DNA of 64,000 nucleotides. Origin: Advenella alkanexedens (GTDB lineage: Bacteria; Pseudomonadota; Gammaproteobacteria; Burkholderiales; Burkholderiaceae_B). The translations under genes and the position numbers were made by a program. A model generated the notes under the pieces. It was not told where the DNA came from. It made no database searches and saw only the letters and a list, made by a program, of their open reading frames with translations. The stretch covers positions 1-64,000 of the forward strand of contig NZ_JAHSPR010000004.1 in NCBI RefSeq assembly GCF_019132845.1. The letters are read 5' to 3'. Numbering within the stretch: position 1 is the stretch's first letter; each line of letters opens with the position of its first letter. Positions 11,901 through 63,454 of the stretch are shown here, one piece after another.

Positions 11901-11913
11901 GGGCAGAATTGTA

Positions 11914-15711: not shown

Positions 15712-15863
15712 TTGTTTTGTGCCACTGTGATTTGAAACAACATTTTTATGCATAAATAATCTATCTTTAAGTCTATCCGACATTATAATTTTGCCTTGAC
15801 TTTTTAATCTCAAAGTCTGGCCATTTTTTCATTTTTAGCCATACAGGATTGTAACTGAACACC

Positions 15864-47047: not shown

Positions 47048-47845
47048 TCATCCTTCGATTACTGCGTAAGCCGAATGATTATGAATGGATTCAAAGTTTT
47101 CAGCTTCGATTTTATAGCGCCTGAGCTGGGGAATTTTCCGGATATTGGCTGCCACGTCACGAATCAGGTCTTCAACGAACTTGGGATTATCGTAAGAGTG
47201 TTCAGTGACATACTTTTCATCCGGGCGTTTCAACAAGCCCCACAATTCGCAGGAAGCCTGTTTTTCAACGGTTTTAATGACCGATTCCATCGTATACGCA
47301 CTATCTGCAACCAGCTGAACGGTAATGTGTGAGCGCTGGTTGTGGGCACCATAAGCGGAAATGGCTTTAGAGCACGGACACAGACTCATGACCGGCACAA
47401 CCACATTAAATTCGAACTCGACCTCATTGCCACGGGCAACCGCAAACCAGGTCACTTGGTAATCCATCAGGCTTTCAACGCCTGAAACCGGTGCACTCTT
47501 GTTAATAAAATACGGGAAAGAAACGGTCAGATCACCTTTTTCAGCATGCAACAAAGGCAGCATCTCGCGAGCCATGTCCTTGAAAAGCTCAATAGTCATG
47601 GCTTGTGAGCGATAGCGCTCAAGCAGCGCCACGAAGCGGGACATATGTGTCCCTTTTTCGTCTTCGGGTAAAAATACGGTAAGTGTCCATTCAGCAATGG
47701 TGGGCTGCACTGAACCATCAGCAGCCTGCACCAGCATGGGATGTTTTACACGTCTGATTCCTACGCGTTCAATTGGTATATGACGCAAGTCCTGGGAACT
47801 TTGCACGTCGGGCATCAACTCGTCCGAGCCAATCATGGAATTCAT
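47048..47845 (-). CDS. folE2: GTP cyclohydrolase FolE2 (type IB)
   Basis: It makes dihydroneopterin triphosphate from GTP, the same reaction as FolE, but with a T-fold of different sequence and a broader metal choice. 265 residues, with the catalytic SLCPCSKAIS (Cys of type IB, about 151), GAHNQRSH and the PVSGVES region. It lies 11 bases after dxs and is part of the xseB-ispA-dxs-folE2 string. In other bacteria folE2 is often induced by zinc shortage; here I saw no separate promoter in front of it, so it is probably expressed with dxs. Confidence 0.94.
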   Translation of the reverse strand: MNSMIGSDELMPDVQSSQDLRHIPIERVGIRRVKHPMLVQAADGSVQPTIAEWTLTVFLPEDEKGTHMSRFVALLERYRSQAMTIELFKDMAREMLPLLHAEKGDLTVSFPYFINKSAPVSGVESLMDYQVTWFAVARGNEVEFEFNVVVPVMSLCPCSKAISAYGAHNQRSHITVQLVADSAYTMESVIKTVEKQASCELWGLLKRPDEKYVTEHSYDNPKFVEDLIRDVAANIRKIPQLRRYKIEAENFESIHNHSAYAVIEG

Positions 47846-47856
47846 ATATTAAAAAC

Positions 47857-49725
47857 CTAAGTAATATTCAAAACGGATTTAAAACGTGCGTGGATTGATG
47901 CCTCGATTCCATCAGAATCAAGGCCCACACCCTTCAAAAGCGCAGCCTGATCACCGTGATCGATAAAACGATCAGGCAAGCCAAGCTGCAAAATGGGTTT
48001 ACTGAGCCCAAACGCGCTCATAAGCTCAGCAACGGCGCTACCAGCACCCCCCATTACACTACCTTCTTCCAGTGTCACAAACACTTCATGTGACGCTGCC
48101 AACTGTTTGACCAGTTCTGCATCAATCGGTTTTACAAAACGCATATCAACCAGCGTTGCATTCAATTTCTCGGCAACCGGCAAGGCTGCATGCAGCAAAG
48201 GCCCAAAAGCCAGAATCGCCAGACGCGAACCCTCACGACGCACCACACCCTTGCCCAGTTCGACAGGATCAAGCGTGTCACTGACATTTGCTCCCGCACC
48301 TGCACCCCTGGGATAACGCACTGAGGCCGGCCCTTGATAGTGGTAACAGGTATTCAGCAACAACCGCGCCTCATTTTCATCAGAAGGAACGGCCACCACC
48401 ATATTGGGAATGCAACGCAAAAAAGCAATATCATAGTTGCCGGCATGGGTGGCGCCATCGGCCCCCACCAGCCCCGCCCGGTCCAGGGCAAAAGTTACAT
48501 CCAGATTTTGCAGGGCAACATCGTGAATCAGTTGATCATACCCCCTTTGCAGGAAGGTTGAATAAATAGCCAGGACAGGTTTAAGGCCTTCACAGGCGAT
48601 ACCGGCCGCAAAAGTGACCGAATGCTGTTCGGCAATGCCCACATCGAAATAACGGTTCGGAAAGCGTTTTTCAAACTCGACCATCCCGCTGCCTTCCCGC
48701 ATGGCTGGCGTGATACCAACCAGCTTTTCGTCTTGCGAGGCCATATCGCACAACCAATGCCCAAAAACCTGGGTAAAGGTTTGTTTGCCCGGCTTGGCAG
48801 GTTTCTGGATACCCACTTCGGGGTCAAATTTGCCGGGTCCATGATACAGGATAGGGTCGGCCTCGGCCATTTTATAACCCTGCCCTTTTTTGGTAACCAC
48901 ATGCAGGAATTGCAAACCACCCATTTGGCGCAGATTTTGCAAGGTGGGCACCAGCGCATCCAGGTCATGGCCATCTATGGGACCCACATAATTAAAGCCG
49001 AACTCCTCAAACCAGGTAGCCGCCCCCAATATACCTTTGGCATGCCCTTTCATTTTACGGGCCATTTCCATGACCGGAGAAGGAAACTGCCCCAATACCG
49101 CCTTGCCTACACTGCGGGCTTCCTGATAAAGCGTCCCCGACAGCAACCTGGCCAGATACTTGTTAAGCGCCCCCACCGGAGGGGATATGGACATATCATT
49201 GTCGTTAAGAATAACCAGCAGATTAATGCCAGGGGTGACACCGGCATTATTCAACGCCTCGTAGGCCATGCCCGCCGTCATGGAACCATCGCCAATGACG
49301 GCAATGTGCTGACGCTCTATTTGCAGATTACGTGAAGCCACGGCCATTCCCAAGGCGGCCGAAATGGACGTGGAAGAATGGGCGGTACCAAAAGCATCGT
49401 ATTCTGATTCGCTACGTTTGGGAAAGCCCGAAATACCACCTTCCTGGCGTAAATGTGCCATCCCCTCACGTCGCCCGGTAAGAATTTTATGCGGGTAGGA
49501 CTGGTGCCCGACATCCCAGATGATCCGGTCATGCGGTGTATTAAACACATAGTGAAGCGCAAGCGTAAGCTCTACCGTTCCAAGATTGGACGACAGATGA
49601 CCTCCCGTTCTGGATACCGAGTGAATAATAAAAGACCGAAGCTCGCTGGCCGCCTGCTCGAGCTCTGAACGGCTTAGTTTTCTGACATCATCGGGCGTGT
49701 TGAGCTTTTCTAGAAAATTTGACAT
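47857..49725 (-). CDS. dxs: 1-deoxy-D-xylulose-5-phosphate synthase
   Basis: Thiamine-diphosphate enzyme that joins pyruvate and glyceraldehyde 3-phosphate, the first step of the MEP isoprenoid pathway. The 622-residue protein shows the transketolase pattern: SSNLG and [15 protein letters not shown], the ThDP motif [25 protein letters not shown], and in the second domain [13 protein letters not shown]. It is 14 bases downstream of ispA. Confidence 0.96.
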
Positions 49726-49739
49726 TAATACGCTTCACA

Positions 49740-50654
49740 TCAATAACTGCGGTGAATAATGAAATCGGCCAACTCTTTGAGTCGAACGGCAGAATCACCT
49801 AATGGTTTAATGGCTTCGATAGCCACTTCATACAATTTCCGGGCAAAATCCCGAGACTCTTCAAGACCCATAATCGAGACATAGGTGGGTTTGTTTTCTT
49901 CGGCATCCTTGCCAGCTGTTTTACCCAAGCCTTCTGTGTCAACCGTGACATCAAGAATATCATCGACAATCTGGAAGGCCAACCCAATGGCAGAGCCGTA
50001 TGTTTCCAGCGCACGCCTGGTTTCAGAGGTGGCACCGGTAACAATAGCCCCCAGCAAAACACTGCCTTCGATAAGCGCCCCGGTTTTCAGGCGATGCATG
50101 AATTGCAGCTGATCAAGGGTCAGTGTCTGATTAACACTGGCCAAATCAATGGCCTGCCCCCCCACCATTCCCAGGCTGCCAGCTACCCGCCCAAGCACCT
50201 GCACAGCCTGTACCACCAGGGCAGGCGCTACCGGCATTTGCGCAAGCTCGGCAAAAGCCAGCGGTTGCAGGGCATCACCCGCCAACATCGCAGTAGCCTC
50301 ACCAAACCGCACATGCACCGTAGGTTGCCCCCTGCGCAGGACATCATTATCCATGCAGGGTAAATCATCATGAACCAGGGAGTAAGCATGAATCAGTTCA
50401 ACGGCCGCGGCAGCCTTGTCAAGCGCATGGCTATATGAATCTATCGCAACGCCCTGTTGCAAGGCAGCCCTTCCTGCCGCATAGACCAGCGTGGCACGAA
50501 TTCTTTTGCCCCCCCCCAAGGTGGCATAGCGCATGGCTTCATGCAACTCGAGCGGTACCTCGTTAGCACCGGGAAGCGCCTTCTCGAGTGCCGTTTCCAC
50601 ATTGTTGACACAAGCAAGCAGCCAGTCCTGAAAACACATTGAACCTGTACTCAT
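49740..50654 (-). CDS. ispA: Farnesyl diphosphate synthase
   Basis: It builds C15 farnesyl diphosphate from isopentenyl and dimethylallyl diphosphate. 304 residues: GGGKRIRA, first aspartate-rich motif LVHDDLPCMDND (about 95), and second motif FQIVDDILDV (about 235). The residues before the first motif fit a C15 product. It follows xseB by three bases. The product feeds hpnD elsewhere in the window as well as quinone and undecaprenyl synthesis. Confidence 0.95.
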   Translation of the reverse strand: MSTGSMCFQDWLLACVNNVETALEKALPGANEVPLELHEAMRYATLGGGKRIRATLVYAAGRAALQQGVAIDSYSHALDKAAAAVELIHAYSLVHDDLPCMDNDVLRRGQPTVHVRFGEATAMLAGDALQPLAFAELAQMPVAPALVVQAVQVLGRVAGSLGMVGGQAIDLASVNQTLTLDQLQFMHRLKTGALIEGSVLLGAIVTGATSETRRALETYGSAIGLAFQIVDDILDVTVDTEGLGKTAGKDAEENKPTYVSIMGLEESRDFARKLYEVAIEAIKPLGDSAVRLKELADFIIHRSY

Positions 50655-50657
50655 TGT

Positions 50658-50906
50658 CTATTCAACCTCGATTTGTGCCGGGCGCAACAAATTGTTCTGA
50701 AGCACCTGCACCTGTTGTTCCGCGGCATCCAGGCGCTCCTGACAAACCCGCGCCAGCGCCACCCCCCTTTCATAGGCTTTCAAAGAGGCTTCCAGGGAAA
50801 GCACATCGCTTTCCATTGACTGTACAATCTCTTCAAGCTCTTTCAGGGCAGACTCAAAATCCTTAGGCAAATCAATGACATCCAGTTTTTCGGTTGATTC
50901 TGACAA
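50658..50906 (-). CDS. xseB: Exodeoxyribonuclease VII small subunit
   Basis: The 82-residue helical protein pairs with XseA to degrade single-stranded DNA. The FESALKELEEIVQSMESDVLSLEASLKAYERGVAL stretch is the conserved coiled-coil core. It precedes ispA, the usual order in proteobacteria. The 259-base region up to the divergent Rieske gene holds AT-rich promoter sequence, such as TACAAT at 50939-50944 on this strand and 51074-51079 on the other, without clear -35 partners. Confidence 0.94.
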   Translation of the reverse strand: MSESTEKLDVIDLPKDFESALKELEEIVQSMESDVLSLEASLKAYERGVALARVCQERLDAAEQQVQVLQNNLLRPAQIEVE

Positions 50907-51165
50907 GGGGCACTCCAGAAAAATTCAAATAATCTGGTATTGTACGAAATCATGGCCTGCCAAGGGCCATATTTTAAGAGTTTTACGTATTTTTCAATCT
51001 GCGCCTTTTTTACGAGCCCAAAAAAATAATAACCTCCCTTACTTTTTTTATTATTAAGGCATTGAATTTTCTGTACAATTTAGCGCTACTTTCTATTTCA
51101 ACAATTTGCCGGCTCATGACCCTTGGTGAGGCGGCTTTATTATATATAAGCGGGGGATCCACAAA

Positions 51166-52308
51166 ATGTCAGTAATTGCATCCATGAAACATGTTGAACC
51201 GGCGCAAACCCAATTACCGGTACATGTTTATTTTGACGAAAACGTCTTTGCCAGGGAACAGGAACAAATTTTCAGACAGTCCGCCTGTTATGTGGGGAAC
51301 GAGAAAATGGTACCCAACATCGGAGACTGGAGAACCCTGGTTCAGGAACAGGCCGGACGAATTCTGGTTCGCAACAAAAACGGCCCCGAATTGTTATCCA
51401 ACGTTTGCCGCCACCGCCAGGCCATCATGCTGGGCGGGGAAGCCGGCAATGTAACCGGTGCCGTCAAGAATCATGGCAATCTGCAAGAAAATGGTGGCAA
51501 TATTGTCTGCCCCCTGCACCGCTGGACTTATGACAACCAGGGAACCTTGCTGGGCGCTCCGCAATTTGGCGAAAAACCTTGCAAAAACCTGCAAAGATTC
51601 CCGCTGTCAAACTGTCATGGCCTGCTTTTTGAAGGCCCGCGCGACCCTGCGACGGATCTTGCCCGGCTTTTTTCCAAGCCCGAGTTCGATTTTTCCGATT
51701 ACGTTCTGGATCATGTCGAAGTACATGAGTGCAACTATAACTGGAAAACCTTCATTGAAGTCTACCTCGAAGACTACCATGTTGCGCCCTTTCATCCTGG
51801 ATTGGGCAAATTCGTCACCTGTGACGATCTTCAGTGGGAGTTCGCAGACTGGTTCAGTGCGCAACATGTAGGCACCCATCAGGCGCTGGCCAATCCCGGA
51901 TCCGAGGTCTATAAAAAATGGCACAATGAGTTGCTTAAGTTCCGCCAGGGCGAGCAACCCGACTTTGGCGCCATCTGGGTCACTTACTATCCCACCCACA
52001 TGATAGAGCTTTACCCCCATGTGCTGGTTTTATCCACGCTGTATCCTGTCAACCCACAAAAAACCGTCAACATCGTCGAGTTTTATTATCCCGAAGAAAT
52101 CGTCATGTTTGAGCGCGATTTTATCGAAGCCCAGCGGGCCGCCTATATGGAAACCGCGATTGAAGATGATGAGATTGCCGAGCGCATGGATGCCGGTCGC
52201 CTGGCCCTGCTCAAACGCAACACCAGCGAAACAGGCCCATACCAGTCTCCACTGGAAGATGGCATGCAACATTTTCATGAGTGGTACAACCGCATCATGA
52301 ATCATTAA
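51166..52308 (+). CDS. Rieske ring-hydroxylating-type oxygenase, alpha subunit
   Basis: A 380-residue protein with a Rieske [2Fe-2S] domain (C81, H83 in VCRHRQ; C115, H118 in VCPLHRW) and a catalytic domain with the mononuclear iron ligands in NWKTFIEVYLEDYHVAPFHPG (His pair about 205 and 210). Between the two halves of the cluster motif are 31 residues, against about 16 in many relatives, due to a Gly/Asn-rich insertion (residues 95-111). The substrate is unknown. Divergent from xseB; a neighbour of this type beside xseB-ispA-dxs is familiar in Burkholderiales. A strong terminator follows. Confidence 0.88.
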   Translation: MSVIASMKHVEPAQTQLPVHVYFDENVFAREQEQIFRQSACYVGNEKMVPNIGDWRTLVQEQAGRILVRNKNGPELLSNVCRHRQAIMLGGEAGNVTGAVKNHGNLQENGGNIVCPLHRWTYDNQGTLLGAPQFGEKPCKNLQRFPLSNCHGLLFEGPRDPATDLARLFSKPEFDFSDYVLDHVEVHECNYNWKTFIEVYLEDYHVAPFHPGLGKFVTCDDLQWEFADWFSAQHVGTHQALANPGSEVYKKWHNELLKFRQGEQPDFGAIWVTYYPTHMIELYPHVLVLSTLYPVNPQKTVNIVEFYYPEEIVMFERDFIEAQRAAYMETAIEDDEIAERMDAGRLALLKRNTSETGPYQSPLEDGMQHFHEWYNRIMNH

Positions 52309-52355
52309 TTAGCCGGTCACAGAAAAAAATCATTTTAAACTTAAAAAATACCCCC

Positions 52356-52389
52356 CCCTTGAAAGGAAACCGCTTTCAAGGGTTTTTTT
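52356..52389 (+). terminator. Terminator after the Rieske gene
   Basis: A 10-bp stem CCCTTGAAAG/CTTTCAAGGG with a 7-base loop is followed by seven T. It lies 48 bases past the stop and is preceded by a run of eight C. Confidence 0.88.
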
Positions 52390-52420
52390 ATCGGTGCATG
52401 TAATTGCGCGTATTTAATGC

Positions 52421-53266
52421 CTAGCCAACCGCAACAGGCCTGGAACTGTCACTGCACCATTCGCTCCAGGACCCGGGGTAAAGCGCAGATCCCGTTAAAC
52501 CCGCCACTTCCATGGCCAGCAGGTTATGGCAGGCACTGATTCCGGAACCACACTGGTGAACAATCTGCTCCGGCTTGTTGTTGCCAAGCAATTGTGCAAA
52601 ACCGGACTTAAGCTCGTCAACGGGAAGAAAGAAACCATCACTATCCAGATTACGGGAAAATGGCCAATTTATCGCTCCGGGAATATGCCCGGCAACTGGA
52701 TCAATGGTTTCATTTTCACCACGGAAACGGTTTTCAGCACGCGCATCGATAACCGTAAAAACAGGCTGATTGATATTGGCCAGTACCGCATTGGCATCCA
52801 CCACCGGCATGCCAGTGGCCCCAGACTCCCACACAACAGGCGCACGCGGTGCCGGTTTTTCACGCTCAATATCACCGCTAATCTGGCCCCAGGCACTCCA
52901 GCCACCGTTAAGCACCCTGACCTTGGTGCAACCCGCCCAGCGCAACATCCACCATAAATGAGCGGCAAACATGCTGTCCCTGGCGTCATAGACCACAATA
53001 TTGGCCTGAGGATCAATACCCAGGTTACCTAGTAACCGGATAAACTCCTCACGTTCAGGCAAGGGATGCCGCCCATTTTTTCCTGTTTTGAGCCCGCACA
53101 GGTCAATTTCATGATCAAGGAAAATGGCGCCCGGAATATGTCCCTCGAGATATTGCTCCCTGCCCAACTGATGGTTGGCCAGATCATGCCTGGCATCCAG
53201 GAGAATCAGGCTATCATCATCATTTAATAAATCTTGCAACTCGAGTGCTGAAATTAAGGGTTCCAC
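52421..53266 (-). CDS. sseA: 3-mercaptopyruvate sulfurtransferase
   Basis: It transfers sulfur from 3-mercaptopyruvate to thiols or cyanide. 281 residues in two rhodanese domains; the first (1-140) is inactive, the second carries the active Cys in HQCGSGISAC (about 237), close to the CGSGVT loop of mercaptopyruvate sulfurtransferases and unlike the CRKGVT of thiosulfate rhodaneses. The start is GTG with GGAG eight bases upstream. It lies 35 bases after the EamA-type gene. Confidence 0.9.
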   Translation of the reverse strand: MEPLISALELQDLLNDDDSLILLDARHDLANHQLGREQYLEGHIPGAIFLDHEIDLCGLKTGKNGRHPLPEREEFIRLLGNLGIDPQANIVVYDARDSMFAAHLWWMLRWAGCTKVRVLNGGWSAWGQISGDIEREKPAPRAPVVWESGATGMPVVDANAVLANINQPVFTVIDARAENRFRGENETIDPVAGHIPGAINWPFSRNLDSDGFFLPVDELKSGFAQLLGNNKPEQIVHQCGSGISACHNLLAMEVAGLTGSALYPGSWSEWCSDSSRPVAVG

Positions 53267-53301
53267 TTTCTTGCTCCAGATAGTTCAAAAAATCATCAAA
53301 T

Positions 53302-54183
53302 TCAGGTCTCAGCCATTTTTTTCCGGGATCGGGCTGCCTCTGCCAGTTGCATGGTTCTCCAGGCAGACAGCAGTCCGGCCAAAATAATCAGCCCCATGCC
53401 TATCCAGGCCAGCAAATCGGGGATATCTCCCCAGAAAACGATACCCAGTATAGCTGCAAATATAATGGTACTGTATTGCAAAGCCGCAGTCAGAATCGGA
53501 GAACCCTGACCAAAGGCACGGGTAAGTGCAAGCTGTCCGATCAGTCCGCTAACGCCCACCCCGAAAAGTGCCAGCCAGGTGGTGAGATTGGGTTCCCCAT
53601 AACCATGCGCCTTCAAGCCAAGAAAACCGGTTAACACCACAATCAGTGAAAAGTAGAAAACGGTTCTCCAGATCGGCTCTCCAATTGCCCCCAACGCTTT
53701 GATCTGCAACATGGCTATACCCCCAAATGCCCCAGACATCAGGCCCAGTGAAGCAGCAAACCACTGGTCTTCAGTGATGCTGGGGCGCAACACCAGCAAC
53801 ACCCCCAGAAAACCCAAAATGACCGACAGCAGACGCAGCGAATCTTTCGGGCCCTTGTTGCTGAAAAACACATAACCGGCAATAAACAGCGGAGAGGTAT
53901 AGTTAAGACTGGCACTGGTTGATAACGGCAGGACGGAATAACCATAAAACCCCATCCACAGGGACGTTACGCCAAACAGATTACGTAAAACATGCAATTT
54001 AACACTTTTCGGCTTCAGGGACTGGTGGCTTAACAGCGCCCACAACACAATCGCTACAATGGAAGGCAACCCGCGGGCTATCACAACAAGAGGCAGGCTT
54101 GAGCCCATCTCATAAGACAGCTTGATACAAGTACCCATAATGGCGAACATCAATGCCGCCAGCAGCATCCACAACGATTGCAT
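53302..54183 (-). CDS. EamA/DMT-superfamily transporter
   Basis: The 293-residue protein has ten hydrophobic segments in two EamA repeats (about 5-135 and 148-280), the drug/metabolite transporter layout. The substrate is unknown; RhaT/YdcZ-type exporters of amino acids or metabolites are relatives. The C-terminus is basic (ARSRKK). It is upstream of sseA on the same strand and divergent from htpX across a 195-base AT-rich gap with no clear motif. Confidence 0.87.
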   Translation of the reverse strand: MQSLWMLLAALMFAIMGTCIKLSYEMGSSLPLVVIARGLPSIVAIVLWALLSHQSLKPKSVKLHVLRNLFGVTSLWMGFYGYSVLPLSTSASLNYTSPLFIAGYVFFSNKGPKDSLRLLSVILGFLGVLLVLRPSITEDQWFAASLGLMSGAFGGIAMLQIKALGAIGEPIWRTVFYFSLIVVLTGFLGLKAHGYGEPNLTTWLALFGVGVSGLIGQLALTRAFGQGSPILTAALQYSTIIFAAILGIVFWGDIPDLLAWIGMGLIILAGLLSAWRTMQLAEAARSRKKMAET

Positions 54184-54378
54184 AGCCTATCTGACCCTGA
54201 AAGGAACATTCTGAAATAAGAAAATCATCATTCTATACCCAAGGTCCCTTTAAATGACGGGAAATCACCTTATATAATTATTAAACAAATCAATATCGCT
54301 GTATTAATCATTTTATTTAAACTATATTATGATGCAGCTCATTTCCGAAAACAGTTAGATTAAAAGACTTAAACCCTT

Positions 54379-55260
54379 ATGAAACGCATTTTTCTATTTC
54401 TTATGACCAACCTGGCCGTTATGGTTGTGCTGGGTGTCACGCTAAATATCCTGGGCATCAACCGCTTCATCACGGCTGAAGGCCTGGACATGACGCAATT
54501 GCTGGCCTTCTCTGCCGTTGTCGGCTTTACCGGCTCCATCATCTCCCTGCTAATTAGCAAACCCATGGCAAAATGGAGCACGGGTGCCCGCGTCATTAAC
54601 CCTGCCGCTCCCGCCAACAGCACGGAAGCCTGGCTGGTTGATACCGTTCATCAACTGGCCGACCGTGCGGGCATTGGCCATCCTGAAGTGGCCATTTATG
54701 AAGGAGATCCGAATGCCTTTGCCACCGGTGCCTTCAAAAATGATGCGCTGGTAGCCGTTTCCACCGGCCTGCTCAACAGCATGACCGAGGAAGAGGTCGC
54801 CGCAGTTCTGGGCCACGAAGTCGCCCACGTGGCCAATGGTGACATGGTAACGCTTACGCTTATTCAGGGTGTCGTCAATACCTTTGTCGTTTTCCTGTCA
54901 CGCATTGTGGGTTATGTCGTTGACCGGGTCATCCTGAAAAATGAACGTGATGTCGGAATTGGTTACTACATTTCCGTCATCGTCTGTGAGATTGTCTTTG
55001 GCATCCTGGCTTCCATCATTGTTGCCTGGTTCTCCCGTCAGCGTGAATACCGTGCCGATGCCGGCGCGGCCCAGCTCCTGGGCTCAGCCGACCCGATGAT
55101 TCATGCCCTTGCCCGTCTGGGCGGCCTCACCCCCGGTGAACTGCCCCAGCAATTGAACGCTTCGGGCATTAGTGGCAAAGTCAATGTGGCTGCCCTGTTC
55201 TCCACCCACCCGCCTATCGAGCACCGTATCAATGCATTGCGTGCCCGGGTTGTCAAATAA
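54379..55260 (+). CDS. htpX: Membrane zinc protease HtpX
   Basis: An inner-membrane metalloprotease that clears misfolded membrane proteins under heat or envelope stress. The 293 residues have two N-terminal helices, the zinc motif [12 protein letters not shown] (about 145), the third ligand Glu in [10 protein letters not shown] (about 222) and two more helices between. Family length is matched. No sigma-32 promoter could be seen in the 195 bases upstream. Confidence 0.95.
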
Positions 55261-55279
55261 ATAATTACCCGCTCTATCA

Positions 55280-55307
55280 CGCTTTGGGCGCAATCGTACC
55301 CAAAGCG
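55280..55307 (+). other. Hairpin after htpX
   Basis: CGCTTTGGG pairs with CCCAAAGCG around a 10-base loop, 20 bases past the htpX stop, without a T run. A stronger terminator follows. Confidence 0.4.
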
Positions 55308-55329
55308 TTGGCAACTCAACCAACGCAAA

Positions 55330-55367
55330 AAAACAGCGCTCCGGCTTATAAACCGGAGCGCTGTTTT
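55330..55367. terminator. Bidirectional terminator between htpX and polA
   Basis: A perfect 15-bp stem AAAACAGCGCTCCGG with its complement and an 8-base loop has A/T-rich ends on both sides. It serves the two convergent genes. Confidence 0.92.
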
Positions 55368-55416
55368 ATCATGGTACAGACAAAGCATATCGGCTTTGAG
55401 CCTGTCTACGGCCTAT

Positions 55417-58137
55417 TTAATGGGCCTGCTCCCAATTGGGACCCATCCCCACTTCAGCCACCAACGGCACCTTCAGCTCCGCCACGCCACACATAAGTTC
55501 AGGCAACCTGGACTTGACCAAATCCACTTCATCTTGCGGCACTTCCAGCACCAATTCATCATGCACCTGCATGATGATCATGGTTTTCAGGTTTTCCTTT
55601 TCTATCCATTCCTGCACGGCCACCATGGCCATTTTAATCAGGTCAGCCGCCGTGCCCTGCATGGGCGCGTTAATGGCCGCCCTTTCTGCCGCTGCTTTAC
55701 GTGGCCCTTTGGCCCCCTTGATTTCAGGCAACCACAGACGCCGCCCGAAAACGGTTTCCACATACCCCTGCTCATTGGCCTTGGCCCGGGTAAGGTCCAT
55801 GTAAGTAGCCACACCGGGATAGCGTTCAAAATAACGGTCAATGTAAGATTGCGCCGCATCACGAGTAATACCCAGGTTGCTGGCCAATCCAAATGCCCCC
55901 ATACCGTAAATCAGACCAAAGTTAATGGCCTTGGCAGCACGACGCTGCTCAGCGGTTACTTCGTCCAGTGGCGTACCAAACACTTCGGATGCAGTTGCCC
56001 GGTGAATATCCTTGCCTTGGGCGAACGCCAATTGCAGGTTGGCATCATCCGACACATGCGCCATCACTCGCAACTCAATTTGTGAGTAGTCAGCCGACAT
56101 AATGACGCCCCCTTTTTCGGGCACAAAAGCGGTTCTGACCCGGCGCCCTTCCTCGGTACGCACCGGAATATTCTGCAAGTTGGGATCGGAAGAAGCCAGA
56201 CGACCTGTAATGACCGCGGCCTGCGCATAATTGGTATGCACCCGGCCGGTTTTGGGGTTGATCATTTTGGGTAATTTGTCGGTATAGGTGGATTTAAGCT
56301 TGGCCAGCCCACGGTACTCCAGCAAAGTGGCCGGCAACGGGTAATCCTGGGCCAGCTTGGTTAACACTTCTTCGTCGGTTGAGGGTGCCCCCTTGGGCGT
56401 TTTGCGGATAACCGGCAATTGCATGCGTTCAAATAAAATTTCGGCCAGCTGCTTGGGCGAGTTCAGATTAAACGGCTGACCCGCCAATTCGTATGCTTTA
56501 TTTTCCAACTCCAACAGCTTCAAACCAATTTCATGGCTTTGCTGCTGCAAGGCTTTTTCATCAATCTTGACACCATTACGCTCGATTTTGGCCAACACTT
56601 CAGAAACCCACATCTCAAGCCGGTAAATCCGGTCAAGTCCTTCTTCAGCCACCACCAAAGGACGCATCAGACCAGCCAACTGCAAGGTGAAATCGGTATC
56701 TTCGCAGGCGTAAAAAGAGGCTTTTTCAATTTCAACCTCATCAAAACCGATCTGACGGGCACCCTTGCCACATAAATCCGTGTAATCCACCCCTTTGCGC
56801 CCCAGATAACGCTGCGCCAGGTCTTGCATGCCAACACTGCGATGGGATTCGAGCACATATGCCATCAACATGGTGTCGTCCTGTATCCCTTTTAACGCAA
56901 TACCTTCATTGGCAAATACATGCGTGTCATATTTGGCGTTTTGCAGCACCTTGGCCGCATTGTCGTCTTCCAGCCATGGCCGCAGTTTTTCAAGCACCAT
57001 GGCTTTATCCAGTTGCTGGGCCAACATATTCCCTTTATGGGCCAGCGGAATATACCACCCCTGCCCTGGATGAATGGACATGGAAGTCCCCACCAGCGAT
57101 GCCACCATCGGGTCCAGCGAAGTGGTTTCGGTATCCAGTGCCACCAACGAAGCGGCCTGGATCTGTGCCAGACAATCTTCCAGCAATTCGGGCGTATCCA
57201 CCGTCACGTAATCGACGGTTTCCGGTGCCTCGGGAATATCATGGGCAACCCTGGCATCCTGTTGCGGCACGGCCTGGTCATCACCGGTCAACTCACGTAA
57301 CCAGGTACGGAATCCAAAATGATCGTAAATTTCCCTGAGTGTTTCCGAATCCTGTGGCTTGCGCGCCAAATCAGACATATCGGTAAAAAAATCATCAATT
57401 TCACAATCACGCTTGATGGTGATCAGCCGACGGGTAAGTGCAAAATTGGGAATGGCTTCACGCAGGTTATTGCCAACAACCCCTTTTATCTTATCGGCAT
57501 TTTCAACCAGCTTATCAAGAGAGCCGTATTCACTGAGCCACTTGACCGCCGTTTTCGGTCCCACTTTTGGCACCCCGGGTACATTATCCACCGAATCACC
57601 AATCAGCATCAAATAATCGATAATTTGCTCGGGTAACACGCCAAATTTGCTTTTCACCCCTTCCACATCCAGCGTTTCATTGGTCATTGTATTAACAATA
57701 CTGACATGCCCATTAACCAGCTGGGCGATATCCTTATCCCCTGTTGAAATAATGGTCTTGACATCATTTTGTGTCGCAATTTCTGCTAAAGTGGCAATAA
57801 TGTCATCCGCCTCGACCCCGGGCTTTGCAATGACAGGCCACCCCATGGCGCTGATGGCCTTGTGAATGGGCGCTATTTGCAAAGCAAGGTCATCAGGCAT
57901 GGGAGGACGATGCCCTTTGTACTCAGGATACAAATCATCACGAAATGTTTTGCCTTTTGCATCAAAAATGCAGGCAACATAATCAGCCTGGTAATCCTGG
58001 TTGATTTTGCGCATCATATTGATGACACCATAAATGGCACCGGTTGGCTCACCCAATGCATTTCTTAAATCAGGCATTGCATGGAAAGCCCGGTACAAAT
58101 AGCTAGATCCATCAACAAGTAATAAGGTTTTTTTCAT
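55417..58137 (-). CDS. polA: DNA polymerase I
   Basis: It removes RNA primers and fills gaps in repair. About 906 residues from ATG 58137 (MKKTLLLVDGSS). Domains: 5' nuclease (1-290, with VDGSSYLYRAFHA and SGDKDIAQLV-like TGDKD), 3'-5' proofreading (DTETTSLD, so active), and polymerase (DYSQIELRVMAHVS, INFGLIYGMGAFGLA and VHDELV). Its ATG lies in the CATG that also forms the start codon of the divergent LOG gene, so each promoter must lie inside the other gene or the short overlap. Ribosome binding is weak; an earlier start (MVAAFVTD, 58161) is possible but not better. Confidence 0.96.
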   Translation of the reverse strand: MKKTLLLVDGSSYLYRAFHAMPDLRNALGEPTGAIYGVINMMRKINQDYQADYVACIFDAKGKTFRDDLYPEYKGHRPPMPDDLALQIAPIHKAISAMGWPVIAKPGVEADDIIATLAEIATQNDVKTIISTGDKDIAQLVNGHVSIVNTMTNETLDVEGVKSKFGVLPEQIIDYLMLIGDSVDNVPGVPKVGPKTAVKWLSEYGSLDKLVENADKIKGVVGNNLREAIPNFALTRRLITIKRDCEIDDFFTDMSDLARKPQDSETLREIYDHFGFRTWLRELTGDDQAVPQQDARVAHDIPEAPETVDYVTVDTPELLEDCLAQIQAASLVALDTETTSLDPMVASLVGTSMSIHPGQGWYIPLAHKGNMLAQQLDKAMVLEKLRPWLEDDNAAKVLQNAKYDTHVFANEGIALKGIQDDTMLMAYVLESHRSVGMQDLAQRYLGRKGVDYTDLCGKGARQIGFDEVEIEKASFYACEDTDFTLQLAGLMRPLVVAEEGLDRIYRLEMWVSEVLAKIERNGVKIDEKALQQQSHEIGLKLLELENKAYELAGQPFNLNSPKQLAEILFERMQLPVIRKTPKGAPSTDEEVLTKLAQDYPLPATLLEYRGLAKLKSTYTDKLPKMINPKTGRVHTNYAQAAVITGRLASSDPNLQNIPVRTEEGRRVRTAFVPEKGGVIMSADYSQIELRVMAHVSDDANLQLAFAQGKDIHRATASEVFGTPLDEVTAEQRRAAKAINFGLIYGMGAFGLASNLGITRDAAQSYIDRYFERYPGVATYMDLTRAKANEQGYVETVFGRRLWLPEIKGAKGPRKAAAERAAINAPMQGTAADLIKMAMVAVQEWIEKENLKTMIIMQVHDELVLEVPQDEVDLVKSRLPELMCGVAELKVPLVAEVGMGPNWEQAH

Positions 58138-58804
58138 GTCAGTAACAAAAGCAGCGACCATCCAGGGACAAATCAGGGAAATTTCCGCTGAATTGCAAGA
58201 TGCCGCCGATCATTTAAAAGATATTTCAGCAGCTGTAAGTATATTCGGAAGTGCCCGCACAAAAACAGATTCTCCTTACTATCGTAAAACGATTGAGATC
58301 AGCCAAAAACTGGCACAGACCGGATTCCATATTATTTCAGGCGGAGGTCCCGGCATTATGGAGGCCGCCAACAAGGGCTGTTTTGAAGCGGGTGGCACCA
58401 GCATTGGGCTCAACATCAAGCTCCCGCACGAACAGAAAGACAATCCGTTTCAGTCACAAAGCATTTATTTCAAATATTTCGTTTCAAGAAAAACCACATT
58501 TTTCATGAACAGCTCTGGCTATATCATTTTACCGGGCGGGTTTGGCACCCTTGATGAGCTCTTCGAAGCGCTTACCCTGATCCAGACCGGAAAAGCCCAT
58601 AAAGCCCCCATTATTTTGGTGGGCACCGAATTCTGGGATGGTCTGCTGCAATGGATAAAAAAACAAATGCTGGGCAACCACTATATTTCACCCAGCGATA
58701 TGGATCTGTTCGTGGTTGAAGACGACCCGGACCGCATCGTCGCCCTCCTCCAGGCCCATCACCAACAACATCTGGAAGAAAAATTCCAGCTTGGGCTGTG
58801 CTAA
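58136..58804 (+). CDS. LOG-family protein (TIGR00730 type)
   Basis: The 222-residue protein shows both motifs of cytokinin-activating LOG phosphoribohydrolases: GGGPGIMEAANKG (about 75) and PGGFGTLDELFE (about 140). LOG enzymes cleave nucleoside 5'-monophosphates to the free base; in bacteria the natural substrate is often unclear. The first 35 residues are a leader not present in short LOGs. AAGG precedes ATG 58136 by about nine bases. It is divergent from polA with overlapping start codons. Confidence 0.88.
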   Translation: MSVTKAATIQGQIREISAELQDAADHLKDISAAVSIFGSARTKTDSPYYRKTIEISQKLAQTGFHIISGGGPGIMEAANKGCFEAGGTSIGLNIKLPHEQKDNPFQSQSIYFKYFVSRKTTFFMNSSGYIILPGGFGTLDELFEALTLIQTGKAHKAPIILVGTEFWDGLLQWIKKQMLGNHYISPSDMDLFVVEDDPDRIVALLQAHHQQHLEEKFQLGLC

Positions 58805-58833
58805 TTCCACTTCAGGATAGCATCTGAATTCAT

Positions 58834-58856
58834 AAACGCCCGAACGGGCGTTTTTT
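58834..58856. terminator. Terminator between the LOG gene and the lipoprotein gene
   Basis: Stem ACGCCC/GGGCGT with a 4-base loop followed by six T; A bases on the left allow use in both directions. The minus-strand stop codon of the lipoprotein gene starts inside the T run. Confidence 0.8.
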
Positions 58857-59133
58857 AATTTGCGGTACCGGCCTGATCCCCGGTGTCCGTTTGCGGGGGA
58901 CGGCACACGACATAAGCGACCGGCACGTCTTCCTCTCTTATTTCGCTCTCCATCACCCTCCCCGACAATGTATTGACACAGCGGTCTGTCATTTTCTGCA
59001 GGCACACACTTTCATTCTGATAACAGGGAAGAATAAGATGGGCATCGGTCTTCTCATATAAAATTTCACCGCTGCCACATCCCGTCAACAAAACAGCCAC
59101 CATCCCGGCCACCTGCGCTTTGCTCAATTGCAC
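58855..59133 (-). CDS. Small putative lipoprotein
   Basis: From a GTG start at 59133 with a perfect AGGAGA seven bases upstream, the 92-residue product begins VQLSKAQVAGMVAVLLTGCGSG, a short lipoprotein signal with lipobox LTGC. The mature part has four further Cys (CYQNESVC, DRC, VVC), perhaps forming two disulfides, and no known domain. An ATG 18 codons upstream would put a second hydrophobic stretch before the signal and lacks a ribosome binding site. Function unknown. Convergent with the LOG gene. Confidence 0.7.
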   Translation of the reverse strand: MQLSKAQVAGMVAVLLTGCGSGEILYEKTDAHLILPCYQNESVCLQKMTDRCVNTLSGRVMESEIREEDVPVAYVVCRPPQTDTGDQAGTAN

Positions 59134-59323
59134 GTCTGCTCTCCTGTTTATTTTCCTGAACAGAAAAATCATTTTCAAATAATTCACTAATGCTCATCAT
59201 TTCAATTTATTTATTGAAATAAATCAAACAAACAGACATTATCGGGCTCACATCACTGCTTGCAGGCTAATATTAACAAAAATTAACCATGCATAACATA
59301 TATTGTCAAAAAGAGAAACAAGA

Positions 59324-60049
59324 ATGACAACCGATAAAAACCTTGATGCCGTCTTTGATCCATTTGACCAAATAGAACAGCAGGCGTTTTTAGAACAATC
59401 ATTGCAAAAGGCCGATTTTGAATATTATATTTATATCCAGAACACGCCTTTTCCCTTCAATAATACCGAATCACAATTCCTGTGCGCCAGCAATCTGCCC
59501 CATTCAAGCCTGAAAAACCTGCAGGATGGCATTGTGCTCAATAAAAACCCACTGGCCTGCCTCAACAACGACTCAACAGCCCATTACCAAACATTCTCCT
59601 GGAACAGACATGCGCTTTCCAATCCTCCCGAGCTGACCAGACTGCTTAAAGACTTCCCACAATTACACGGCCTGCATTTTCCGTGCCAGAATATTTCCGG
59701 CCATAAAAAAAACTCCCTAACCCTGCTCAGGGCCTGCCATCCTGTTTCGACGCAGGAAATCAGGCAAAACCTGTTCCCCCTAAGGCATCTGGTTTTTTCC
59801 GCCCGCTATTTGATCAGACAAAATCTCATCAGTCATTATTTGAACACCATGCATCCAACCCTCCCACCACGGCAAATGGAAATAAGCCGGTGTATCGTGG
59901 CAGACATGAGCAATAACGATATTGCCAGGCTGCTTCGAATCAAGAACGAAACCGTGACCTATCACGTAAGACAGATTCTCAGAAACACAAACTCCAGTCG
60001 CCGAACGACAGGAGCGTTCAAGGCACTATTGCCGGAATTGATCACCTAA
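59324..60049 (+). CDS. LuxR-family transcriptional regulator (quorum-sensing-like, solo)
   Basis: The 241-residue protein has an N-terminal domain (about 15-165) resembling autoinducer-binding LuxR domains and a C-terminal LuxR HTH (about 180-237: SNNDIARLLRIKNETVTYHVRQIL). Some ligand-pocket residues are kept (W93, P76, G116 in TraR-type alignment), but the positions usually Trp, Tyr and Asp read Ser/Leu/Asn (SSLKNL, NKNP), so it may bind a different molecule or none. No luxI synthase is present. ATG 59324 follows AAGAGAAAC; a TTG seven codons earlier is less likely. The gap before it (59134-59323) is AT-rich. Confidence 0.75.
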   Translation: MTTDKNLDAVFDPFDQIEQQAFLEQSLQKADFEYYIYIQNTPFPFNNTESQFLCASNLPHSSLKNLQDGIVLNKNPLACLNNDSTAHYQTFSWNRHALSNPPELTRLLKDFPQLHGLHFPCQNISGHKKNSLTLLRACHPVSTQEIRQNLFPLRHLVFSARYLIRQNLISHYLNTMHPTLPPRQMEISRCIVADMSNNDIARLLRIKNETVTYHVRQILRNTNSSRRTTGAFKALLPELIT

Positions 60050-60207
60050 ATACCCTGCGCCACTGAAGGCACTGCCCGCAACCCTGTCCTGGCCCCTTTA
60101 TTTCTATTCAATCCCAAGTGGCAAAACAACCTACTTAAATCAGTAAAGACTTATAATAATACGTTTTACGGGATTTATCCCTGGCCCATTTTTTACCGCA
60201 GAAAGTC

Positions 60208-62865
60208 ATGTTGGAACAATATAACCCACTAAAAGTAGAACAAAACGCTCAACGCAACTGGCAAGATGCCAATGCCTATCTGGTCAGCGAGCATGCCAAA
60301 GACAGCAACGGCAACGACAAACCCAAGTTTTATGCCTGCTCCATGCTGCCCTACCCTAGCGGCAAGCTGCATATGGGCCATGTCCGTAACTACACCATCA
60401 ACGATATGATGGCGCGCCAGCTGCGCATGCGTGGATTCAACGTACTCATGCCCATGGGCTGGGACGCTTTCGGCATGCCGGCCGAAAATGCTGCCATCAA
60501 ATCAAAGGTCCCTCCCGCAAAATGGACTTACGACAACATTGCCTACATGAAAAAACAAATGCAGGCAATGGGACTGGCCATCGACTGGTCACGCGAAATG
60601 TGTGCCTGCGACCCCGATTACTACAAATGGAACCAATGGTTCTTCCTGAAAATGCTTGAAAAAGGCATTGCCTACCGTAAAACCCAAACCGTTAACTGGG
60701 ATCCGGTCGACAATACCGTGCTGGCCAATGAACAGGTCATTGATGGACGCGGCTGGCGCTCGGGTGCACTGGTTGAAAAACGTGAAATTCCCGGCTACTA
60801 CCTGCGCATTACCGACTACGCCGAAGAACTGCTGCATGAAGTCAAGCACAATCTGCCCGGCTGGCCCGAGCGCGTACGCCTGATGCAGGAAAACTGGATC
60901 GGCAAAAGCGAAGGGGTCCGTTTTGCCTTTACCCATGACATCAAAAACAATGAAGGCCAGCTTATTCAGGATGGACGCATGTATGTGTTCACCACCCGCC
61001 CCGACACCATCATGGGCGTTACCTTCTGTGCGGTTGCCCCCGAGCACCCGCTGGCTACCCATGCCGCGCAAAACAACCCCGACCTGGCGGCCTTCATCGA
61101 AACCTGCAAGCTGGGTGGCACAACCGAGGTCGAAATGGCCACCCGTGAAAAAGAAGGGTTGCCCACCGGCCTGTACGTGACCCACCCCATTACCAATGAA
61201 CAGATTGAAATCTGGGTTGGTAATTATGTCCTCATGAGCTACGGTGATGGCGCCGTCATGGGCGTACCTGCCCACGATGAGCGGGATTTCGCTTTTGCAC
61301 TGAAATACCGGTTGCCGATCAAACAAGTCATCTCGGTTCAGGACAAACCCTACTCAACCGAACAATGGCAGGAATGGTATGCCGACAAACAAAACGGCAT
61401 TGTCATCAACTCAGGCCAGTTCAACGGCCTTAACCACCAACAGGCTGTCGATGCCGTTGCCGAAGTACTTTCCGGCAAGGGTCTGGGCGAAAAGCAAACC
61501 ACCTGGCGCCTGCGTGACTGGGGCATTTCCCGTCAACGTTACTGGGGTACCCCCATTCCCATCATCCATTGCGCAGACTGCGGTCCGGTTCCCGTACCCG
61601 AAAAAGACCTGCCAGTCAGACTGCCCGAAGAGCTGATTCCCGATGGCAGTGGCAATCCGCTTAACAAGCACGAAGCATTCCTGTCTTGCGCCTGCCCCAA
61701 ATGTGGCAAGCCTGCCCGTCGCGAAACCGACACCATGGATACTTTCATCGACTCCTCCTGGTACTTCATGCGGTACACTTCGCCCGGCAACAACAATGCC
61801 ATGGTTGATGCCCGCAACGACTACTGGATGCCGATGGACCAATACATTGGCGGCATTGAACACGCCGTGCTGCATTTGCTGTATGCCCGCTTCTGGACCA
61901 AAGTCATGCGCGACATGGGCCTGGTCAAATTTGACGAGCCTTTCAAGAAACTGCTTTGCCAGGGTATGGTGCTTAACCACATCTACTCTCGCAAAAACGA
62001 AAAAGGTGGTATTGAATATTTCTGGCCAGAAGAAGTTGAAAATATTTACAACGAAAAAGGCAGCATTATCGGTGCCCGCCTGATCAAGGACAACTCACCG
62101 GTCGACTACGGCGGCATTGGCACTATGTCCAAGTCCAAAAACAACGGGGTAGACCCGCAAGCCCTTATCGACACCTTGGGTGCCGATACCGCCCGTCTGT
62201 TTGTCATGTTTACCAGCCCCCCAGAACAAACACTGGAATGGTCCGACTCCGGTGTGGAAGGCTCTCACCGTTTCCTCAAGCGTTTGTGGGCCATGGCTTA
62301 TAACCACAAAGAAATTATTAGCCGTGCACCTGCCACTGCCCCCGACTGGAGCAACGCACCCAAGGCCGTGAAAGAACTGCGCCGGATCGCTTACTCCCTG
62401 CTCAAGCAGGCCAATTACGACTACGAGCGCATTCAATACAACACCGTGGTTTCTGCCAACATGAAACTGCTCAATGCGATTGAAGACGCCAAACTCGAAG
62501 CCGGTCCCGAAGCCGATGCCGCCATCAAGGAAGTAATCTGCATTCTGCTGCGCATGCTTTACCCTGTGGTTCCGCATATTACCTGGCATCTGTGGAATGA
62601 GCTTGGCTATGCCCAGCAGCACGGTGACCTGCTTGATGCACCATGGCCGGAACTTGACGAACAGGCGCTGATTGCCGATGAAATTGAAATGATGCTGCAA
62701 ATCAATGGAAAACTGCGCGGCTCGGTTAACGTACCTAACGGAGCCCCCAAGGAAGACATTGAAAAACTGGCAATGGCACATCATTCAGTAGAGAAATTCC
62801 TTGAAGGCCGTGCGCCCAAAAGGATCATCATTGTTCCCGGCAAGCTGATCAACATTGTAGGATAA
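60208..62865 (+). CDS. leuS: Leucyl-tRNA synthetase
   Basis: It charges tRNA-Leu. 885 residues, class I: HIGH-type motif [15 protein letters not shown] (about 51), editing domain (about 225-420 with TTRPDTIMG), the zinc-type segment CADCGP ... CPKCG, and KMSKS-type TMSKSKNNG (about 640). The C-terminal anticodon and ULS domains are complete. A TATAAT lies at 60152-60157, without a clear -35. leuS is followed seven bases later by lptE, the usual order. Confidence 0.97.
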
Positions 62866-62872
62866 GTAAAAA

Positions 62873-63454
62873 ATGCAGACACAAGCACGCTTCATCTTCC
62901 CACATACCAAACGTGTACAACTGTTACTGGCAGCAGGTGTTCTGCTGTGTCTGCTCATTGCCGGCTGCGGCTTTAAAATGCGCGGTCCCACACCACTGCC
63001 TTTTTCCACCCTGTATACCAATATCCCGCAAAACTCCGCCTTTGGCTCAAGAGTCTGGCGTGCCATTCAGGCCAACTCGCCCGGTACGACCGTCACTGCC
63101 GATGCTGCCCTGGCACAAGCAAAGCTGATTCAGGAGGATTTTAGCCGCTCACAGCGTGAGGTTTCCCTGGACGCCCAGGGTAAGGTCGAGGAATACGAAC
63201 TCAACCTGGTTCTGACCTTCAGCATGACAGACAGTCATGGCAATGAACTGATCCCAACCTCACGGATTGAGGCCACCCGCCAGCTGCCTTACGATGAAGA
63301 TGATGCATCAGCCAAGCAGGAAGAAATGGCACAATTGTATACAGACATGGAAAAAAGCATCGCAGACCGCCTGATCCGTCGCATTACATCCCCGGATGTC
63401 ATCACGACCTATCTGCAACATAACCCGACGCCGGGTTTTGTACCTGCGCAGTAG
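62873..63454 (+). CDS. lptE: LPS-assembly lipoprotein LptE
   Basis: An outer-membrane lipoprotein that plugs LptD and helps insert LPS. The 193 residues have a lipoprotein signal (lipobox LIAGC, Cys about 32) and GFKMRG directly after, as in LptE. The rest is the mixed alpha/beta LptE fold. The N-region before the hydrophobic core is long (MQTQARFIFPHTKRVQ). It lies between leuS and holA in one operon. Confidence 0.92.
   Translation: MQTQARFIFPHTKRVQLLLAAGVLLCLLIAGCGFKMRGPTPLPFSTLYTNIPQNSAFGSRVWRAIQANSPGTTVTADAALAQAKLIQEDFSRSQREVSLDAQGKVEEYELNLVLTFSMTDSHGNELIPTSRIEATRQLPYDEDDASAKQEEMAQLYTDMEKSIADRLIRRITSPDVITTYLQHNPTPGFVPAQ

Follow-up and report, generated by a model that had tools for sequence, protein, structure and literature searches.

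What does a receptor for acyl-homoserine lactones (AHLs) become after quorum sensing has been lost? There are many LuxR solos whose pocket is altered, and few of them have a known input. The stretch of DNA analyzed here (64,000 nucleotides, hereafter the window) belongs to an Advenella genome (Alcaligenaceae; 2.99 Mb in 20 contigs, 99.5% complete) and carries a luxR-type gene (Table 1) with which this question can be addressed. Judging from sequence comparisons, we consider it rather likely that this gene encodes a LuxR solo that is found throughout the genus, has lost the ability to sense AHLs, and acts as a DNA-binding regulator, with either a non-AHL ligand or none at all.

Table 1. Positions in the window of the luxR-type gene, its diagnostic residues, and the candidate elements upstream
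Feature	Position	Strand	Evidence
luxR-type regulator gene, solo, 241 aa	59324..60049	+	ORF and translation; Pfam GerE; orthologue profile; orthologues in 10/10 Advenella
Autoinducer-binding-like N-terminal domain, residues 21-150	59384..59773	+	PF03472 below cutoff; orthologue-profile match
S62, at TraR W57 position (S/R/G/A in the window's clade)	59507..59509	+	Alignment with RhlR and QscR
L66, at TraR Y61 position	59519..59521	+	Alignment with RhlR and QscR
N75, at TraR D70 position	59546..59548	+	Alignment with RhlR and QscR
P76, TraR P71, kept	59549..59551	+	Alignment with RhlR and QscR
W93, TraR W85, kept	59600..59602	+	Alignment with RhlR and QscR
G116, TraR G113, kept	59669..59671	+	Alignment with RhlR and QscR
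GerE/LuxR helix-turn-helix, residues 179-221, with Q184, S188, and D194	59858..59986	+	Pfam E value of 7.1e-9; residue table
Dyad ATTTATTTATTGAAATAAAT, 20 bp, candidate autoregulatory site	59205..59224	.	Conserved in three species
Promoter-like site TTGAAA-17-CATTAT, overlapping the dyad	59214..59242	+	9/12 consensus match
Small divergent putative lipoprotein ORF	58855..59187	-	10/10 Advenella loci; lipobox LLTGC by eye

Domain homology and the search for a synthase

According to the ORF list and its translation, the gene starts with an ATG at 59324 and ends with a stop codon at 60047-60049, and the starting methionine is common to the orthologues of A. faeciporci, A. mandrilli, and an Alcaligenaceae MAG. 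The GerE domain (PF00196) was recognized by Pfam above its cutoff (E value of 7.1e-9); the autoinducer-binding domain (PF03472, Autoind_bind) reached 17.5 bits (E value of 0.003), below the 23-bit cutoff, which was exceeded in 3 of the 10 Advenella genomes. Compared on its own with the PDB, the window protein matched an engineered RhlR (E value of 3.4e-9), SdiA (0.002), and native RhlR (0.018). A profile made from 8 of the 10 Advenella orthologues matched these receptors over both domains, with E values of 2e-27 for the engineered RhlR, 2e-20 for native RhlR, 8e-24 for QscR, and 1e-17 for SdiA. Full-length homology to AHL receptors is therefore secure, in agreement with the first-pass annotation, which had described the N-terminal domain as AHL receptor-like. 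With its 241 amino acids, GerE above the cutoff, and the profile match to both domains, the protein has the architecture of a LuxR solo (PF03472 plus PF00196 in ca. 230 to 270 amino acids). An AlphaFold2 model computed from a four-row alignment was poor (mean pLDDT of 48.4 and pTM of 0.33), and a Foldseek search with it placed RhlR, SdiA, QscR, and CviR on top (E values of 2e-5 to 5e-4; TM scores of ca. 0.2). Given the low pLDDT and TM values, we took this ranking as weak support for the fold and read no pocket geometry from it.

No luxI gene (PF00765) was detected in the whole 2.99-Mb assembly of the window genome, and none of the 10 Advenella genomes gave a match at an E value of 0.001. The same search retrieved clear luxI genes in three genomes from other genera of the family (G025, G199, and G171; E values of 1e-22 to 1e-25), which serve as the positive control, given that PF00765 remained unmatched in a control set of 14 genomes. 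LuxM-type synthases (PF17327) gave no match either, in a search that had no positive control. Thus, the earlier remark that no luxI lies near the gene was right, and the search of the rest of the genome that it had proposed extends it to the complete assembly and to the 10 genomes of the genus, so that the regulator is a solo with no cognate luxI found at either level. Across the family, PF00765 matched 53 of 268 genomes at an E value of 0.001, 9 of them over the cutoff; apart from the three clear luxI genes, we observed weak matches (E values of 3e-7 to 1e-3), mostly open frames of ca. 270 amino acids and none of them in Advenella, which are possibly other acyltransferases. The genome of A. 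kashmirensis (described as Tetrathiobacter) has been reported to be without the full quorum sensing gene set, which was found in Bb and A8 (Bordetella bronchiseptica and Achromobacter) and not in Tk; LuxR is not mentioned in the passages concerned (PMC3669393).

Chance match aside, a single Autoind_bind-type gene was detected in each Advenella genome. PF03472 at an E value of 0.05 found 8 of the 10, always through this gene, and the other two were reached by the protein search. A second putative autoinducer-domain gene in the window genome (G000:C13, L026; E value of 0.02) contained three in-frame stops and was discarded as a chance match.

Pocket and DNA-binding residues

TraR itself missed the E value of 0.001 when the profile was compared with the PDB, and RhlR and QscR served as references for mapping the residues. 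To convert TraR to RhlR numbering, we used offsets of +11 as far as W85 and +6 from F101; they are our own reading, checked at only the six motif positions, which fall on W, Y, D, P, W, and G in RhlR. In TraR numbering, W57-Y61-D70-P71-W85-G113 reads S-L-N-P-W-G in the window protein, with three of the six residues canonical, and the Thr at the T129 position is also kept. This is what the first-pass annotation had read from the letters (Ser, Leu, and Asn for W57, Y61, and D70, with the equivalents of P71, W85, and G113 retained), and the alignment with RhlR, QscR, and 30 relatives did not restore the canonical residues. Three changes absent from that annotation affect the DNA-binding hallmarks, E178Q, L182S, and G188D (Q184, S188, and D194 in the window protein). 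With half of the pocket hallmarks and all three DNA-binding ones replaced, only three of the nine hallmark residues defined in PMC10134790, which also defines the solo classes and class E, are left, and the protein has the residues of an AHL quorum sensing receptor neither in the pocket (SLNPWG) nor in the DNA-binding part (Q/S/D).

In order to put these residues into perspective, we compiled 62 ORF rows; 9 without both domains were dropped, and the remaining 53 full-length sequences reduced to 41 distinct ones (10 Advenella, one from G222, a genome of another genus, and 30 others), to which pieces of RhlR and QscR were added. The 30 others are a part of all the matches, most of them found by their likeness to the window protein. 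Among them, W57, W85, and G113 were conserved in 30/30, Y61 and D70 in 29/30, and P71 in 26/30; W57, Y61, and D70 occurred together in 29 and the whole WYDPWG in 26. None of the 10 Advenella orthologues kept W57 or Y61, and D70 was also absent from all four members of the window's clade. Position Y53, given as conserved in PMC3821632, was Tyr in all 30 other relatives, and the 10 Advenella all have Leu or Ile there. As the same losses are found in every Advenella orthologue, the change of the pocket is not the drift of one sequence.

Two pocket forms can be distinguished within the genus. In the window's clade, the motif reads SLNPWG (window), RLNPWG (A. faeciporci), GLNPWG (A. mandrilli), and AFNPWC (MAG), and L58, L63, N75, P76, W93, and L104 are invariant, so that a modified pocket could persist. 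In all six large-genome Advenella (4.3 to 4.9 Mb), which form the sister clade, it reads L-DTWG, with D70 kept; there, a two-residue gap takes up the Y61 position, so that where Y61 is placed depends on the alignment. G222 has SMKPWG, in a region of uncertain alignment. The DNA-binding changes are distributed differently. E178Q is common to all 11 proteins encoded next to leuS (those of Advenella and G222) and to one receptor with a canonical pocket (L014), L182S occurs in three species, and G188D occurs only in the window and A. faeciporci. L014 lies ca. 15 kb from the luxI gene of G171; a different receptor, L029, is encoded next to this luxI.

W57 and D70 are hydrogen-bonding partners of the AHL. 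With both of them and the roof aromatics gone, AHL sensing has most likely been lost, and the failure to find luxI together with the unrestored canonical residues supports the view that the protein is a LuxR solo and that it probably does not bind AHLs. It is improbable that the protein still perceives the AHLs of neighbors through an unusual pocket, as a class B solo: the homology in fold to RhlR, QscR, and SdiA and the retained W85, P71, and G113 would agree with this, but the very residues that bind the AHL, as well as Y61, are replaced, while 29 of the 30 other relatives keep all three. Under our preferred reading of a solo that has left AHLs behind, the protein retains its fold and its DNA-binding domain, and the AHL pocket would have been dismantled, most simply before the sampled Advenella species diverged. 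In the window's clade, the aromatic residues of the roof and the hydrogen-bonding partners W57 and D70 have given way to small or aliphatic residues (plus one Arg and one Phe) and to Asn, with AHL binding presumably lost on the way.

Selection and candidate inputs

We then compared rates of evolution (Nei-Gojobori) among the window genome, A. faeciporci, and A. mandrilli. The luxR-type gene had dN/dS values of 0.18 to 0.23, against 0.036 to 0.065 for polA and leuS, 0.05 to 0.12 for LOG, 0.14 to 0.18 for lptE, and 0.25 to 0.32 for the lipoprotein ORF; comparisons of the luxR-type gene with the MAG were mostly saturated. Values of ca. 0.2 indicate purifying selection and not a pseudogene. A decaying gene without function is thus very improbable; the three changed DNA-binding hallmarks and a dN/dS above those of polA, leuS, and LOG could be taken in its favor, but the frame is open in all 10 genomes, the ratio is near that of lptE, and the helix-turn-helix still scores over the Pfam cutoff. 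By domain, dN/dS was 0.22 to 0.36 in the N-terminal part and 0.07 to 0.14 in the DNA-binding part (one pair could not be computed). Between the window and A. faeciporci, the bootstrap intervals were apart (0.36 [0.21 to 0.60] versus 0.07 [0.02 to 0.16]), while they overlapped between the window and A. mandrilli.

Conservation of the pocket was evaluated at 16 positions taken from the literature (14 of them usable in the large-genome clade), with a permutation that treats columns as independent. Relative to the remaining positions of the domain, those of the pocket were better conserved in the 30 other relatives (0.707 versus 0.407; P = 0.0001) and in the six large-genome Advenella (0.952 versus 0.775; P = 0.009), and not significantly so in the four sequences of the window's clade (0.656 versus 0.552; P = 0.14). 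This favors a retained, different ligand in the large-genome sister clade and perhaps in the window's clade.

These values bear on the two inputs that we consider for such a solo. The first is a pocket rebuilt for a non-AHL ligand, either an endogenous metabolite or a compound from a host or neighbor, as in PluR, PauR, and the PAB solos. We give it somewhat less than an even chance. The persistence of P71, W85, G113, and the Thr at the T129 position, the conserved pocket of the sister clade, and the existence of solos with altered motifs and known non-AHL ligands (described in PMC4235431 and PMC10134790) all point in this direction. However, the residue at position 57 differs among four related species (S, R, G, or A), conservation of the pocket in the window's clade does not significantly exceed the domain average, and PluR, PauR, and the PAB solos keep D70 and an aromatic residue at position 61, neither of which is found in the window protein.

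The second is a ligand-independent regulator of class E type, in which the N-terminal domain would be a scaffold for folding and dimerization and the output would follow the protein's own expression. This is quite possible, though we would lean against it. The loss of W57, Y61, D70, and Y53, the variability of position 57, and the faster N-terminal domain in the comparison with A. faeciporci are consistent with it, and CarR, CepR2, and MalR (PMC10134790) provide precedents of ligand-independent class E solos. These three examples retain all six pocket residues, however, and both the overlapping intervals with A. mandrilli and the significantly conserved pocket of the sister clade argue against it. 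Under the overall reading of a non-AHL solo, the input would then be either a ligand other than an AHL, probably an endogenous one, or the level of its own expression, the latter in the window's clade.

Compared with the receptors of known structure, the window protein resembles RhlR, QscR, and SdiA in its two-domain length and order, in the full-length profile match, and in W85, P71, and G113, and it differs from them in the replacement of W57, Y61, D70, E178, L182, and G188 and in a genome without a luxI match. Equivalents of W57 and D70 have also been lost in solo subgroups H and I of fluorescent Pseudomonas, a different genus, according to PMC8546723. The Photorhabdus regulators PluR and PauR are likewise presented in PMC4235431 as Autoind_bind solos with an altered WYDPWG and non-AHL ligands, photopyrones for PluR and dialkylresorcinols for PauR (see also PMC10134790), but they keep Y61 and D70 (TYDQCS and TYDQYI, versus SLNPWG in the window protein); the same source gives D70N for 19% of Photorhabdus solos. 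The plant-sensing PAB solos (OryR type), as treated in PMC3821632, share with the window protein changes in the specificity patch, including A105 to Leu (L108 here). Nevertheless, they are reported there with Y61W in 18/18, W57M in 13/18, D70 kept, and a pip neighbor, and the window protein has none of these, with Ser and Leu in place of the W57M and Y61W signature. No proline iminopeptidase (pip) gene was found among the neighbors scanned from 47048 to 63454 (polA, TIGR00730 [LOG], the unnamed lipoprotein, leuS, lptE, and seven more), where the only peptidase belonged to the M48 family. The first-pass annotation had suggested that such solos can sense other molecules, such as host or neighbor signals; with neither the PAB signature nor a pip neighbor, with a variable position 57 in the window's clade, and with a ligand-independent regulator fitting equally well, nothing found here points to this type of input.

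Given that solos with altered pockets were already known, including some that have lost W57 and D70, we regard the Advenella protein as a new lineage within a known type. This lineage stands out by combining a position next to leuS in all the genus genomes examined, changes in 3/6 pocket and 3/3 DNA-binding hallmarks of one protein, and two types of pocket in one genus. Among the publications listed in our literature searches, none deals with an Advenella LuxR regulator, judged by title or the start of the abstract. As it is the only autoinducer-type receptor detected per genome, with neither a canonical paralogue nor a luxI found and with two pocket forms, the gene offers a clean test system. 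A more specific and more speculative scenario, which we rate as rather unlikely in its entirety, is that an Advenella-wide, leuS-linked branch of AHL receptors left quorum sensing completely, in a genus with no luxI detected, and split into two pocket types, one SLNPWG-like with a hypervariable position 57 and the other L-DTWG with two residues deleted, one clade having evolved a ligand-independent autoregulator and the other having acquired a new endogenous ligand.

Locus, phylogeny, and upstream DNA

The named orthologues were those of A. faeciporci KCTC 23732 (77% identity) and A. mandrilli WQ 585 (66%), together with the Alcaligenaceae MAG (41%). A protein search (E value of 1e-5) of the 268 genomes of the family, its own included, gave 17 positive genomes, all 10 Advenella and seven others; the best of the latter was G222, with 27% identity, and two of the seven matches cover the DNA-binding part or little more. 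A profile of the N-terminal domain matched, in the same 268 genomes, the 10 Advenella, G222, and G043, whose pocket looks canonical by eye. In all 10 Advenella loci, leuS is directly downstream of the luxR-type gene and the small lipoprotein ORF is upstream on the opposite strand, and the TIGR00730 (LOG) gene follows in nine, the contig of the tenth ending first (leuS, polA, and the TIGR00730 gene were named by NCBIfam).

In a tree of 43 rows, the 11 leuS-linked proteins were on one side of a branch with support of 100/99. G222 was nested with the small-genome species (98/89) on a long branch, with Advenella then not one clade; when G222 and a second long row, L054, were removed, Advenella was a single clade (100/100). 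We regard the luxR-type gene as vertically inherited. Regarding a mobile origin, none of 99 pattern matches in viral contigs was confirmed as a relative, and a plasmid search returned 29 records with weak matches, one of them extending over the greater part of the query with 22% identity.

The LuxR-type gene of G222 (L011, 1468-2199, reverse strand) is also upstream of leuS, and its product is ca. 26 to 27% identical. The LOG and lipoprotein genes were unmatched in the stretch of G222 examined, and the gene may be a true orthologue or have reached this position by convergence.

Between the divergent lipoprotein ORF and the luxR-type gene, we found the dyad ATTTATTTATTGAAATAAAT, which is AT rich and not lux box-like. 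It has six consecutive complementary pairs that are invariant in three species, a number that was reached by none of 500 column shuffles, a lenient control. The exact sequence occurs once in the genome, and the search for a regulon pointed to no further targets (5 genome matches within three mismatches versus 5 with the reversed control). Its half-sites were absent upstream of the 6/6 large-clade genes, where a different and weak dyad was equalled or exceeded by 78 of 500 shuffles. ATTTATTTATTGAAATAAAT overlaps the -35 element of the promoter-like match; the region contains 4 such sites, which is not clearly more than in shuffled sequences (3.1; standard deviation, 1.7). Autoregulation through the dyad would be our guess. 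The likeliest target of the regulator would be this dyad over its own promoter, perhaps together with control of the divergent lipoprotein gene. leuS may have a promoter of its own, recognized by eye within a conserved part of the gap between luxR and leuS, so that there is no sign of its control by the LuxR-type protein.

The lipoprotein ORF had no Pfam or NCBIfam family and is fast evolving, as seen in its dN/dS. In three large-genome Advenella (L007 816-1316, L008, and L009), an extra glycine-rich, lipoprotein-like ORF with a lipobox recognized by eye (LLTGC or LLGGC) is located between the small lipoprotein ORF and luxR; in the window, the corresponding space cannot accommodate such an ORF. 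Elsewhere in the window, an HrpA-like helicase ORF (DUF3418, 11914-15813) and the DNA polymerase III alpha ORF (8385-12044), both on the minus strand, share ca. 130 bases (11914-12044), the former with its 3' end and the latter with its 5' end; this overlap probably reflects only a mechanical choice of the polymerase start.
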